A stretch of DNA of 34,582 bases from NCBI GenBank assembly GCA_955652835.1, contig CATPBO010000007.1, positions 1 through 34,582 of the forward strand, read 5' to 3'. Both the position numbers and the translations under genes were made by a program. The notes below the pieces were generated by a model that was not told where the DNA came from, did no database searches, and saw nothing but the letters and a program-made list of their open reading frames with translations. Shown in pieces: positions 28,637-34,465 of this stretch; the stretch's first letter is position 1; each line of letters starts with the position of its first letter. Source of the stretch: Candidatus Dormiibacterota bacterium (GTDB lineage Bacteria > Chloroflexota > Dormibacteria > Dormibacterales > Dormibacteraceae).

Positions 28637-30211
28637 ATGTCTAATCGGCGGATCGTCGTCTACGACACGACGCTGCGCGACGGCGCACAAGGACCGGCTG
28701 TGTCCTTTTCCGCCTCCGACAAGCTGCGGGTCGCCCGCACGCTCGACGAGCTGGGATTCGACTATGTGGAAGGCGGCTTTCCCGGGTCCAACCCGAAGGA
28801 CGAGGAGGTATTCGCCGGCCTTCAAAGGCACCCGCTCAAGCGTGCGCGACTGGCCGCATTCGGTGCGACCCGGCGCGCCAACAGCAGCTGCGAGGACGAC
28901 GCGAATCTTGACGCGCTGGCCCGCAGTGGAGCACCGGTCTGGACGCTTGTCGGCAAGAGCGACCCGTGGCAGGTCAGCACCGTGCTGCAGACCACGACGA
29001 CCGAGAACCTGGCGATGGTCGAGGAGTCGGTTGCGTACGGCGTAGGCCTTGGCCGGGAGCTGATCTTCGACGCCGAGCACTTCTTCGATGGCTTTGCCCG
29101 CGACTCCGAGTACGCGCTCGAGGTCTGCTTGGCGGCCGCTAGAGCTGGGGCGGCGTGGATCGTCCTGTGCGACACCAATGGGGGGAGTATGCCTGCCGAA
29201 GTCCGGCAAGGCGTGGAGGCGGTGCGCCTCGCGCTTGCCGGCCTTGACCGTCCGCCTCGAGTCGGCATCCACACGCACAACGACTGCGAGCTCGCCGTGG
29301 CCAACTCGCTCGAGGGCGTGTTGGCGGGGGCGGACATGGTGCAGGGCACCATCAACGGCTACGGCGAGCGGTGCGGCAACGCGAACCTGGTCTCGGTCGT
29401 GACGAACCTGGTGGTAAAGCTCGGCTTCGAAGCTCTGCCGCCCACCTCGATCGCGCGCTTCACCGACCTGTCGCGCACTGTCGCTGAGATCGCGAACCTT
29501 GCCCTACCGCTCCAGCAGCCCTTTGTCGGCAACGGCGCCTTCGCGCACAAGGGCGGCCAGCATGTCGCGGCCGTGCTGCGACACAAGGACTCGTACCAGC
29601 ACATCGACCCAGGCGTGGTCGGCAACGAGCCGCGTGTGCTCGTCTCGGAGCTGTCGGGTCGGGGCAATGTCCTGGCCAAGGCACGCGAGTTCGGGCTGGA
29701 GCTCGACCGCGACGATCCTCAGACCCGCTGGTTAGTTCAGCATCTCAAAGAGCTCGAGCATCGCGGCTACTCGTACGAGGCCGCCGAGGCTTCGTTCGAG
29801 ATGCTGGTCCGGCGGCTGCAGCCGGGCTATAAGGCCCCCTGGACCGTCGCCGACTTCACGACCCAGGTCCGCAAGAACGGTGACTCGGTGAGTGCCGAGG
29901 CCACGGTCCGGGTCGAGGTGGCCGGGACCGTCTTTCACACTGCCGCTTCGGGAAATGGTCCTGTCAATGCGCTCGACGCCGCCCTGCGGAAAGCGCTCAG
30001 CCCGCGTTTTCCACGACTACGCGGAGTGAAGCTGCACGACTACAAGGTCCGCATCCTCGACGGGGACGCCGGCACGGCCGCGACCACTCGTGTCCTCATC
30101 GAATCGGGCAAGGGCCTCAAGCGGTGGACCACCGTCGGGTGTTCCAGCAACATCATCGAGGCGTCGCTGCTGGCGCTGGTCGATTCCCTGGAGTACGCGC
30201 AGACCGCTTAG
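28637..30211 (+). CDS. cimA: (R)-citramalate synthase
   Basis: 'YDTTLRDGAQGPAVSFSASDKLRVARTLDELGFDYVEGGFPGSNPKDEEVF', 'HTHNDCELAVANSLEGVLAGADMVQGTINGYGERCGNANL', C-terminal LeuA-type regulatory domain. Confidence 0.92.
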   Translation: MSNRRIVVYDTTLRDGAQGPAVSFSASDKLRVARTLDELGFDYVEGGFPGSNPKDEEVFAGLQRHPLKRARLAAFGATRRANSSCEDDANLDALARSGAPVWTLVGKSDPWQVSTVLQTTTTENLAMVEESVAYGVGLGRELIFDAEHFFDGFARDSEYALEVCLAAARAGAAWIVLCDTNGGSMPAEVRQGVEAVRLALAGLDRPPRVGIHTHNDCELAVANSLEGVLAGADMVQGTINGYGERCGNANLVSVVTNLVVKLGFEALPPTSIARFTDLSRTVAEIANLALPLQQPFVGNGAFAHKGGQHVAAVLRHKDSYQHIDPGVVGNEPRVLVSELSGRGNVLAKAREFGLELDRDDPQTRWLVQHLKELEHRGYSYEAAEASFEMLVRRLQPGYKAPWTVADFTTQVRKNGDSVSAEATVRVEVAGTVFHTAASGNGPVNALDAALRKALSPRFPRLRGVKLHDYKVRILDGDAGTAATTRVLIESGKGLKRWTTVGCSSNIIEASLLALVDSLEYAQTA

Positions 30212-31599
30212 GCGATCGCGGCCCTGGATTCGATCGCTGGCTGCCGCGTGCGCGACCCGAGCGCCAGCTTGAGGTGCTGTACCGCGCCGCCCATGTCGCC
30301 GCGTGCCTCGAGGATCTCGGCGTAGTCGGCATGAGCGCGACTCAGACGGTCCTTTGCCTGAGCCTTTTCGAGCAGCTCGAACGCGACGTGAAACTCAGCG
30401 TCCCCAGTGGCGTGATCACCACGGGCAACCGCGACGCGGCCAACCCACTCATGTGATTCAGCGATCGACGATTCTTCCGCAAGCCGCGTCGCCAGTTCAA
30501 GAGCTGCTTTCGCGTGCCGACCCGCCTCCTCCAGCTCGGACTCGGCGAGAGCCAGCTCGCTGAGACTAAGCAAGAAAGCCGCCTTGCCAGCTTCGACACG
30601 GTCCTGCTCAAGGAGGCGGACCGACCGTTCGAGGTGGCCTCGCGCTCTGACCAGCTCTCCCGCACCCAACAGCATCAACCCGAGGTTGTTTTCGGACCGG
30701 GCGAGGGAAATGCGGTCGTTGAGCGTCTCGTGGATGGCCATCGCCCGTTGGGCGTAGTGCGCCGCCTGGTTGAACTGTCCTGTCTCCTGGCAGGCCAAAC
30801 TTAGGCCGCTGTACATGAGAGACAGCCGGCGGAGGTCCTGCACCACGTCGCCGGCTTCGATCGCTTGCTCGTACGACTTGATCGCTGCTTCCCAATTGTG
30901 GTTGGTCGCGTGGACGTGCCCGAGGATGGCCAGGAGACGGCTTTCGGTGAGACTCGGGATCGGGAAGAGCGATCGACAGGTAGCCAGCGCACCCTCGGCG
31001 ATGGCGAGAGCGCCAGGGTCCTGCATCAGGTAGGCGGCGGACGCTTCGCTGCCCAGGCACTCCGCGGTCATGAGCATGTCTCCAGCCTGTTCGAAGTACG
31101 CCCGCGCGGCGGCAGCGGCCCGGCGCGCAGGCACCGGCTGCGCGAGTCTCAAGTGCGCCGTAGCCAGGAGGAACCTGATTCGCGCCGCGATCTCCGCGTC
31201 CCGCTCAGTGTCCAGCATCGTTTTGCCGGCGACGATGGCAGCGTCCGCGTCACCGGCGGTGATGAGGCGTTCGACCTCAGCCGTCCCAGCGCTTGAACGA
31301 GGTTCCATGGTGCTTGGCTGGCTCAGGAAGTAGTCGAGGGGCCTCCCCGTACGCTCGGCGATGAGCTTTAGCGTCTCCATCGAGGGCTTAGCCTTGCCGG
31401 TCTCAACGAAGAAGATGGCGGTCCGGCTGATGTCTGTGCCTGCCACCTGTCCGAGGCTGAGGCCGGCTTCCAGCCTTGCTTGCCGAGCCGTACCAGGCTT
31501 GATCTCGACGCCCAACCGGCGCCCACGACGGCCTGAGGTCGCCTTCCCATTCGCGCCTGGTGCCTCAGCAGCCGATGGGTGCGCAGACACCTCTGACAT
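30208..31599 (-). CDS. XRE-family HTH regulator with TPR repeats (RNPP/RRNPP-like architecture)
   Basis: HTH 'TARQARLEAGLSLGQVAGTDISRTAIFFVETGKAKPSMETLKLIAERTGRPLDYFL' followed by several TPR-like repeats ('NWEAAIKSYEQAIEAGD', 'GQFNQAAHYAQRAMAIHE'). Confidence 0.9.
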   Translation of the reverse strand: MSEVSAHPSAAEAPGANGKATSGRRGRRLGVEIKPGTARQARLEAGLSLGQVAGTDISRTAIFFVETGKAKPSMETLKLIAERTGRPLDYFLSQPSTMEPRSSAGTAEVERLITAGDADAAIVAGKTMLDTERDAEIAARIRFLLATAHLRLAQPVPARRAAAAARAYFEQAGDMLMTAECLGSEASAAYLMQDPGALAIAEGALATCRSLFPIPSLTESRLLAILGHVHATNHNWEAAIKSYEQAIEAGDVVQDLRRLSLMYSGLSLACQETGQFNQAAHYAQRAMAIHETLNDRISLARSENNLGLMLLGAGELVRARGHLERSVRLLEQDRVEAGKAAFLLSLSELALAESELEEAGRHAKAALELATRLAEESSIAESHEWVGRVAVARGDHATGDAEFHVAFELLEKAQAKDRLSRAHADYAEILEARGDMGGAVQHLKLALGSRTRQPAIESRAAIA

Positions 31600-31627
31600 A
31601 ACGCCAGCTTAACCGACAGCCAGTCAC

Positions 31628-31649
31628 TTGACGAACGATGAATTGACGA
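31628..31649 (-). promoter_or_regulatory. Direct repeat TTGACGA x2 upstream of the XRE-TPR gene
   Basis: TTGACGA at 31628-31634 and 31643-31649, 15 bp apart, between the peptide ORF and the regulator start. Confidence 0.4.
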
Positions 31650-31679
31650 CAACCACTTGTGCCGCTGTTTAGCTGCGGT

Positions 31680-31778
31680 TTAGGAGCAGCACGGCGCGAC
31701 GGTCGTGGCACCGACGCCAATCGACAGCACCAGCACGAAGATCGTCGCCAGCATGGCGGCAAAAAATAGCTTTCGCAT
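31680..31778 (-). CDS. Putative secreted signalling peptide precursor, 32 aa
   Basis: MRKLFFAAMLATIFVLVLSIGVGATTVAPCCS*; SD AAAGGAGGTGA ending 5 nt before ATG; N-terminal RK, hydrophobic core, VGA signal-peptidase-like site. Confidence 0.7.
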   Translation of the reverse strand: MRKLFFAAMLATIFVLVLSIGVGATTVAPCCS

Positions 31779-31785
31779 TCAAATC

Positions 31786-31835
31786 ACCTCCTTTGCGGCA
31801 CAGACCAGCGCCGCAGAAGGGCACCGAAGGGAGGT
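31786..31835 (-). promoter_or_regulatory. Potential SD-sequestering stem-loop in the peptide 5' region
   Basis: ACCTCC (31835-31830) complements GGAGGT (31791-31786); nested TGCGGC/GCCGCA stem (31815-31810 / 31799-31794). Confidence 0.45.
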
Positions 31836-32213
31836 TCAATCGGAGGGGGCGACGGCTACTCTGACCTGGCGCGGCCCCGACAGGCGCGCTCCCAAGCCCC
31901 ATGCCATCGCAATCAACTTCACCCCACTCACAGCCGTGCCCAGGATTCCCAGCGCGGCGGCGCCAACCCATCCGGGCGGCAGCTCGAGCACTCGCAACGC
32001 GACCGCAGCCGGCAGCAGCGGCAGGAAGACGGCAACCGAGGCAACCAGGATCGCGGCGATGCTCCATGGCAAGCTTGATCCTTCGAGGGCAGAGTCGATC
32101 TCGTCGACCACTCGTCGTCGATCCGAGCCGTACTCGACTGTCAGGTCGATGGCAGCGCCTCCGTCATAGCCGTCGCTGCACGCCTCGCGGCTGTGGTACA
32201 AGTGACTCCCCAA
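31836..32213 (-). CDS. Small two-TM membrane protein, unknown function
   Basis: 125-aa ORF, 'LPWSIAAILVASVAVFLPLLPAAVALRVL...GWVGAAALGILGTAVSGVKLIAMAWGL'; non-ATG start uncertain; same strand as peptide and regulator. Confidence 0.6.
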   Translation of the reverse strand: MGSHLYHSREACSDGYDGGAAIDLTVEYGSDRRRVVDEIDSALEGSSLPWSIAAILVASVAVFLPLLPAAVALRVLELPPGWVGAAALGILGTAVSGVKLIAMAWGLGARLSGPRQVRVAVAPSD

Positions 32214-32216
32214 TGA

Positions 32217-32244
32217 TGTTAATTGAAGTCAGGATGAATTAACA
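32217..32244. promoter_or_regulatory. Perfect dyad TGTTAATT-N12-AATTAACA between divergent genes
   Basis: 8-bp arms at 32217-32224 and 32237-32244, in an AT-rich island between starts at 32213 (-) and 32261 (+). Confidence 0.5.
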
Positions 32245-32260
32245 GGGAATTGGGGAACTA

Positions 32261-34465
32261 GTGTCGAGGTCAGCGTCTCCGACGTTCGCCCCGGCCCTAC
32301 AGCCCGCGTCGCCGGCGGGCGGGCCACCGATCCTGGAAGGTTCGCCACTGGGCGTCACCGGTCTGGGCCTTCGCGGCTGGCGGGTGTTCACGATCGCCGC
32401 CGCAGCGGCCGCCCTTGTGTCGGTGGCCTTCATGGCCTGGACCGCGTACCGCATCGGCGGCGACCAGGTGACGATTGCTGTAGACGACATCGGCGAGGCG
32501 GTGGCGGCGCTAACCGCCGCCTTCAGCTGCGGTCTCGCCGCCTACCGGACTTCACGGCGAACACGAATCGCATGGGCGTTCCTTGCTGCTTCGGCCGCCA
32601 GCTGGGGAATCGGCGAGGTGATCTGGTCCGTCTACGAGGTCGGGTTGGGCGTCAGCGTTCCGTTTCCTTCGGCCGCCGACGCCGGCTTCTTGTTCGCGAT
32701 TCCGCTGGGCGTCATCGGAGTGTTCGCCTTCACGGCTGCTCCAAGCCGCTTGACGACCCGCGGCGAAGCGCTCCTGGCGGGCGCCCTGGTCGCCCTCTCT
32801 CTGCTGTTCGTCTCCTGGGCGCTTGGCCTCAGCAAGGTTTACGACACATCGGCAGCATCACCCGCAGCGCAGTTGATCGGCCTCGCCTACCCGGTCGGCG
32901 ACATCCTCATGATCACCGTCCTCGTCCTTGCGCTGCGGCGCGCGCGACGGACGGAGCTGGGCCGGATGTTCCTACTGCTCGGCGGCCTGGCCGCCAACGC
33001 GCTCGCCGACAGTGCGTTCGCGTATCTCACCGCCAACGGGTCGTATCACGCGATCGGCAGCATCCTCGATGCCGGCTGGGTGATCGGCTACCTGATGATC
33101 GCGCTCGCGCCCCTGTGGCCGTCATCTGACACGGAGAGGTCTGCCGCGGAAGGCCCGATCGGGCTGTGGCAGCTCGCCCTGCCCTGGGCCGCGGTGTTCG
33201 TCGCGTCGGTCACGGCTATCAAGCTGGCTCTCAGCGACCAGGTGCTGGACCGCTTCGAGACTGTCCTCGCGGGAAGCATCGGAGTCCTCCTGGTCGGCAG
33301 CCAGGTCCTTTCGCACCGGGATTCGCTGTCGATGCTGCTCAAGAGCCAGCGCGCGGAAAGCCAGGTTGGACGCCGCAACAAGCTGCTGAACGACATCATC
33401 AACCACGCGCCCCTGGGCATCGCGCGTGTAGGCACCGATATGCGGATCATCGACGTCAATCCGCGGATGTCGTCTCTCCTGCGGATGGACGCGGATAAGC
33501 TTGTCGGCGCGCCCGTCGCCGACTACCTCGACCCCAGCGAGTTCGCGCGTGTGTTCGAGATCTTCCAGCCGCTGTGGAACGGATTGGTCGACACCGTCGA
33601 GTCGGACAGCCAGGCCGTCCGCGGCGACCGGACGAATGTCTGGCTTCACTGGAGCGCGACCACGGTGCGCAATGCTGCGGGGCGCGTCCAGTACTTCCTC
33701 ATCTTGTACGAGGACACCGACGCCGAGCACGCCGCCAACCAGGCGGCGATGGCGCATCTGGCGGGTATCGAACGGCTGAACCAGCTCAAAAGTGAGTTCA
33801 TCACGCTCGCCAGTCACGAATTTCGTACCGGGCTCGTCGGAATTCAGGGCTTCAGCGAGATGATGCGCGACGCAGACCTTCCGCTTGCCGAGATCAAGAG
33901 CTACGCCGGTGAGATCAACAAGGACGCCGAGCGCCTCAACCGCATGATCAGCGACATGCTCGACCTCGATCGCATAGAGGCCGGCCGCCTGGTCCTGCGT
34001 ACGGAGCCGGTGAACATCAACGTTGTGCTGCGTGAGGCAGTCGAGCGAGCCCGCGCGTCAGGCGGCCATCACGTGATCGACGCCCATCTCGACTCCACGC
34101 AGCCGATCGTCCACTGTGACGCCGACCGCGTCGCGCAGATCATCTCCAACCTTCTGACGAACGCCGTCAAATACTCACCTGACGGGGGCGACATCCTGGT
34201 CACAAGCCGAGTCAGCGAAGCATTCGTCGAGGTCAGCGTGCGAGACCACGGCGTCGGCATCGCACCTGAATTCGCCGACCAGCTGTTCAGCCGTTACGAG
34301 CGATATGAGAAGAACAGCAACAAGATCGTCGGCACTGGGCTGGGGCTGGCAATCGCGCGACAGATCGTCCAGCTTCATGGCGGCCGGATCTGGGTGGACA
34401 GCAAGGTCGGCGAGGGCTCGGACTTTCACTTCACGCTGCCGCTGCCCATGACGAAGCTCGGCTGA
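32261..34465 (+). CDS. Multi-TM PAS-domain sensor histidine kinase, no adjacent response regulator
   Basis: About nine N-terminal TM segments; PAS 'DIINHAPLGIARVGTDMRIIDVNPRMSSLL'; H-box 'ITLASHEFRTGLVGIQGFSEMM'; 'NLLTNAVKYSPDGG', 'DHGVGIAPEF', 'GTGLGLAIARQIVQLHGG'. Confidence 0.95.
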   Translation: MSRSASPTFAPALQPASPAGGPPILEGSPLGVTGLGLRGWRVFTIAAAAAALVSVAFMAWTAYRIGGDQVTIAVDDIGEAVAALTAAFSCGLAAYRTSRRTRIAWAFLAASAASWGIGEVIWSVYEVGLGVSVPFPSAADAGFLFAIPLGVIGVFAFTAAPSRLTTRGEALLAGALVALSLLFVSWALGLSKVYDTSAASPAAQLIGLAYPVGDILMITVLVLALRRARRTELGRMFLLLGGLAANALADSAFAYLTANGSYHAIGSILDAGWVIGYLMIALAPLWPSSDTERSAAEGPIGLWQLALPWAAVFVASVTAIKLALSDQVLDRFETVLAGSIGVLLVGSQVLSHRDSLSMLLKSQRAESQVGRRNKLLNDIINHAPLGIARVGTDMRIIDVNPRMSSLLRMDADKLVGAPVADYLDPSEFARVFEIFQPLWNGLVDTVESDSQAVRGDRTNVWLHWSATTVRNAAGRVQYFLILYEDTDAEHAANQAAMAHLAGIERLNQLKSEFITLASHEFRTGLVGIQGFSEMMRDADLPLAEIKSYAGEINKDAERLNRMISDMLDLDRIEAGRLVLRTEPVNINVVLREAVERARASGGHHVIDAHLDSTQPIVHCDADRVAQIISNLLTNAVKYSPDGGDILVTSRVSEAFVEVSVRDHGVGIAPEFADQLFSRYERYEKNSNKIVGTGLGLAIARQIVQLHGGRIWVDSKVGEGSDFHFTLPLPMTKLG

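Follow-up and report, generated by a model that had tools for sequence, protein, structure and literature searches.

Gene content and a dyad at a divergent locus

The window analysed here, a stretch of 34,582 nt that constitutes an entire contig, ends shortly past a gene encoding a multi-TM PAS histidine kinase of 734 aa with HisKA and HATPase_c domains (32261-34465, plus strand). A cluster on the minus strand faces away from it, comprising a small two-TM-like ORF (31836-32150), a 32-aa propeptide (31680-31778) and an XRE-TPR regulator of 463 aa with HTH_3 and TPR domains (30208-31599), which we propose as a peptide receptor and as the protein that binds the site described below. The propeptide, MRKLFFAAMLATIFVLVLSIGVGATTVAPCCS, has a conserved C-terminal CC and is separated from the XRE-TPR gene by 80 bp.

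Between the cluster and the kinase lies the dyad TGTTAATT-N12-AATTAACA, a candidate operator noted in the first-pass annotation, which we located exactly at 32217-32244. Its half-sites are everted, with ACA pointing outward: the left one, TCAATTAAC, is read on the minus strand at 32218-32226 and the right one, TGAATTAAC, on the plus strand at 32235-32243. Viewed as hexamers, the dyad here is TGTTAA-N16-TTAACA, with 16-17 bp between hexamers. It was the sole match in the window when up to 3 mismatches were allowed, and 100 shuffles yielded none. The search for many genome-wide copies, which the first-pass annotation had suggested as a check, returned no second match at the same tolerance in the genome (2.63 Mb in 263 contigs, 85% complete). 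We also noticed an outer inverted repeat, absent from that annotation, TCCCCAAT/ATTGGGGA at 32207-32214/32249-32256, whose right arm overlaps the Shine-Dalgarno-like GGGGA of the kinase; it is not conserved in relatives and was rejected as part of the operator.

The divergent gap had been given as 47 bp, between starts at 32213 (minus) and 32261 (plus). The arithmetic is correct for the listed ORFs; the minus start, however, is open to doubt: the matching TTG of relatives runs into TAG, and TTG at 32213/32201 was rejected as a conserved start. From the sequence, the true minus start is likely an ATC at 32150 following GGAGG (32158-32162), which would widen the divergent gap to about 110 bp. 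The conserved frame of the small ORF, in the window and in the orthologs of L071-L073, L078, L080, L081 and L084, opens with a non-canonical ATT or ATC about 6 nt past GGAGG. This ORF evolves fast, and we regard it as a marginal gene candidate given its frameshifts in several relatives (L033, L034, L079 and L085) and a weak third-position excess.

Conservation of the dyad among relatives

The relatives compared are uncultured Candidatus Dormibacterota from soil. We found 21 distinct copies of the dyad upstream of orthologous histidine kinases, and it is kept in about twenty related species. The half-site consensus over the 21 dyads is T[CG]AnTTAAC[AG], with two copies off at one position; TTAAC and A4 are invariant in 42/42 half-sites, and position 3 is C or G in 40/42. 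The 8-bp arms stand 12 or 13 bp apart, for a total length of 28-29 bp. The dyad is present in same-genus kinase orthologs (75-77% identity) while the flanking DNA diverges, and also in three or more further genera of the family (kinase identity about 61-70%), again with diverged flanks. When the whole genomes of 37 relatives were searched for the pattern GTTAAN{15,17}TTAAC, each genome containing the locus gave a single match, located at the kinase, except that G016 has two, each at a kinase copy. The one remaining match, in G012, is unlike the half-site and unrelated. On this comparative evidence we consider that the dyad is a conserved regulatory site.

Such conservation might simply be that of core promoter elements. 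In that case the arms would be TTAACA -35 or TAACAT -10 elements of two divergent promoters with no dedicated regulator, and the symmetry would arise from their back-to-back arrangement. TTAACA is near the -35 consensus, and on the minus side TAnCA is conserved in 16 loci, 17-18 bp past TTAACA. In the window, TACCAC at 32193-32198 (minus strand), 18 bp after TTAACA, may serve as the -10 of a promoter on that strand, and the TTAACA of the left half-site (32222-32217) could have a second role as the -35 of this promoter. However, the conservation exceeds the hexamer, extending to A4 and to C/G at position 3, which a -35 element does not need. In the window's genus the right arm cannot be the kinase -35, because just 16 bp separate the dyad from the start codon. 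Furthermore, the extended motif recurs in inverted pairs at XRE-TPR paralogs (see below), and the second arm of these pairs is not oriented as a promoter would require. We therefore hold it unlikely that the arms are mere promoter elements.

A scan for sigma-70 promoters and terminators over 31500-32500 returned nothing, and an Rfam search of the window gave zero matches. For the minus-strand leader, a conserved RNA fold was considered and rejected, the structure being weak (7 pairs, -2.6 kcal/mol). Past the dyad on the minus strand, the sequence of the block GGCAGT-ACTTGTAGCACAGCCG (32183-32215) is conserved between genera, but an RNA fold is not; the block is possibly the promoter together with a 5' leader.

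Association of the half-site with XRE-TPR genes

Wherever the dyad occurs, G016 included, an XRE-TPR gene is divergent from the kinase. Conversely, 17 kinase-family loci without an adjacent XRE-TPR gene had neither dyads nor half-sites in the 660 bp searched. Since all kinases with the dyad belong to a single ortholog group, shared kinase descent could by itself account for this co-occurrence. An independent test of the binder comes from the XRE-TPR paralogs on other contigs.

We searched the 350-bp regions upstream of 35 XRE-TPR paralogs, with shuffles and the remaining 122 kb of these loci as controls. ACTTAAC was observed 16 times, compared with 0.7 in shuffles (maximum 4), and TGAnTTRAC 25 times, compared with 0.33 (maximum 3); the 122 kb of control sequence contained 0 and 3 matches respectively. 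The half-sites at paralogs are often, if not usually, arranged as inverted pairs, as in L125 (TGACTTAAC-GTTGGT-GTTAAGTCA) and in L120 (TTTGAGTTGAC-ACCGATC-GTCAACTCAAA), where the pair overlaps a -35-like TTGACA. Some of the 35 paralogs have no half-site in the 350 bp upstream. In the window's genome, TTAACN{2,14}GTTAA occurs once, upstream of an XRE-TPR paralog on another contig (C146). A half-site is also found just before the XRE-TPR gene itself in 17/22 loci; the window has two on the plus strand, TCACTTGAC at 31624-31632 and TGAATTGAC at 31639-31647, just upstream of the XRE-TPR start.

The paralog next to the C146 palindrome (G000:C146:10467-10487; L158, L119) adjoins a pheA-like gene; we looked for a propeptide at this paralog and in the group beside pheA and detected none. 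As a genome-wide operator pattern, TTGACN{4,10}GTCAA was discarded as too unspecific, with 13 matches, one of which sits upstream of an XRE-TPR paralog on C38.

These results bear on two other candidate binders. The dyad could be the autoregulatory site of the kinase's own response regulator: it lies directly upstream of the kinase every time and tracks one kinase ortholog group. On the other hand, XRE-TPR paralogs located on other contigs carry the half-site too, kinase paralogs without XRE-TPR have no dyad, and the regulators adjacent in relatives are a lone REC and a REC-HD protein, neither of which has a DNA-binding domain. We judge this role of the dyad distinctly unlikely. That some other, unlinked transcription factor binds both the dyad and the XRE-TPR operators seems very improbable: the assignment of the binding protein to XRE-TPR does come from sequence associations, but the sites track XRE-TPR genes, both TTAAC dyads in the genome adjoin such genes, and a global factor would be expected to own more sites. 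Of the binders proposed by the first-pass annotation, the XRE-TPR protein is therefore favoured, and the response regulators are not.

The kinase had also been described as an orphan, which the comparison with relatives does not support. A single-domain receiver protein directly follows the kinase in L073, L074, L081 and L083, and a REC-HD (HD-GYP-like) protein adjoins XRE-TPR in most relatives (L073, L077 and other loci). The window's contig has neither; a citramalate/isopropylmalate-synthase-like gene adjoins XRE-TPR instead.

A candidate peptide-receptor system

We estimate at roughly 70% the probability that the dyad is the operator of the adjacent XRE-TPR protein, a putative RRNPP-like peptide receptor, and would control both the peptide operon and the kinase. 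The idea that a single symmetric operator lies between the kinase and the peptide-TPR cluster, put forward in the first-pass annotation, is strongly supported by the conservation of the dyad, by its co-occurrence with XRE-TPR and the kinase, and by the half-sites at XRE-TPR paralogs.

RRNPP systems are recognised by a receptor of 250-500 aa matching TPR models, an N-terminal HTH in most subfamilies, and an adjacent propeptide of 10-100 aa at an intergenic distance of -60 to 400 bp, with a Shine-Dalgarno sequence and predicted by SignalP to be Sec-secreted (PMC10075063). The XRE-TPR protein, at 463 aa, matches TPR_12 (E=4.9e-13) and carries an N-terminal HTH_3 domain at residues 39-91 (E=4.3e-9), whose recognition-helix region SRTAIxFVETGK(A/S)KPS is nearly invariant within the group. 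An adjacent propeptide, in the window 32 aa long, 80 bp away and preceded by the Shine-Dalgarno sequence AAAGGAGGTGA, is present in all 22 dyad loci. It lies between the dyad and XRE-TPR, is signal-peptide-like, measures 30-32 aa, has a strong Shine-Dalgarno sequence and follows the pattern MRKL..AAILA..., ending in CC or in CC plus one residue. Read by eye, it has an MRK n-region, a hydrophobic core and, in many orthologs, an A-x-A-like site. In the size and domains of its receptor, and in the length and spacing of its propeptide, the locus agrees with the published signature.

The AlphaFold model of the XRE-TPR protein consists of an HTH and a TPR superhelix (pLDDT 86.7). Foldseek places RapF, RapI, Rap-CSF and Rap-pLS20 among its bacterial matches (TMt 0.62-0.73), with eukaryotic TPR proteins ranking higher and LGN proteins best of all. 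Because TPR folds are generic, the model supports the statement that the protein may work like RRNPP receptors, rather than that it is one of them. Weak similarity in the TPR region to NsdA/AfsR-like and other actinobacterial TPR regulators (NCBIfam) was also seen, with all matches far below the curated cut-offs and no peptide partner implied.

In the mechanism that we propose, the XRE-TPR protein would be a cytoplasmic receptor acting like RRNPP quorum-sensing regulators. It would bind as a dimer linked through TPR, with its two HTH heads on the outward-facing half-sites, 17-18 bp apart centre to centre. The left half-site would overlap the candidate -35 (TTAACA) of an operon encoding the small TM protein and the 32-aa propeptide, and a further half-site lies in the start region of the XRE-TPR gene itself. 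The propeptide would be secreted and processed to about 6-9 residues ending in CC; the processed peptide, once back inside the cell, would occupy the TPR groove and alter the binding of the operator. Peptide output and the divergent kinase would in this way respond jointly to population density. As for the sign of regulation, we favour a scheme in which the peptide operon is repressed when peptide is absent and the peptide relieves this repression. A single rigid dimer does not account for both operator types, because orientation and spacing differ: half-sites are everted at the dyad and inverted at paralog operators, with variable spacing.

The closest parallels are the RRNPP(A) systems of Bacillota (Rap, Rgg, NprR, PlcR, PrgX, AimR), which share the receptor size, the N-terminal HTH and TPR, and a propeptide of 21-50 aa resembling a secretion signal that lies beside the receptor across a short intergenic gap (PMC10075063). 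Unlike these, the receptor family described here occurs only inside class Dormibacteria in our sample of the phylum, its peptide ends in CC, its divergent neighbour is a histidine kinase, and peptide binding is predicted. AimR-AimP arbitrium of the SPbeta/phi3T phages likewise pairs an HTH-TPR receptor with an adjacent small propeptide, and in its operator a long, 25-bp spacer, whose change in length is tolerated, separates two inverted boxes of 6 bp, ATCACT or ATGTTC (PMC6458997). In contrast, the dyad has TTAAC-core half-sites over 28-29 bp in total, with 16-17 bp between hexamers rather than 25, and its hosts are Dormibacterota, not Bacillus phages; the likeness observed is one of architecture.

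RRNPP-type receptor-peptide quorum sensing has been described for Bacillota and their mobile elements, and our literature search found no quorum-sensing work on Dormibacterota. If correct, our reading would add a further lineage, the uncultured Dormibacterota of soil, to those with intracellular peptide signalling, and the dyad would control a bacterial communication system that has not been described before. Such a module would also supply a defined DNA target of 28 bp and a short peptide, made synthetically, for tests in vitro that do not require the organism to be cultured.

We lean, by a little over even odds, towards a broader proposal in which Dormibacterota have a peptide quorum-sensing family of their own, with receptor pairs composed of XRE-TPR proteins and propeptides of 26-36 aa with tails such as PCC, GPTP, HCS and GPGI. 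These pairs would share a common half-site vocabulary in varied orientations and spacings, the dyad at 32217-32244 being the everted form, through which pheromone sensing would be linked to a transmembrane histidine kinase. Signal-peptide-like propeptides of 26-36 aa with distinct tails (GPTP, HCS/HCF, GPGI, WPPHI, SPSGW) lie upstream of several XRE-TPR paralogs, at L120, L123, L126, L129, L132-L134, L136-L144, L151 and L154-L156, which suggests that such peptide/receptor pairs form an entire family.
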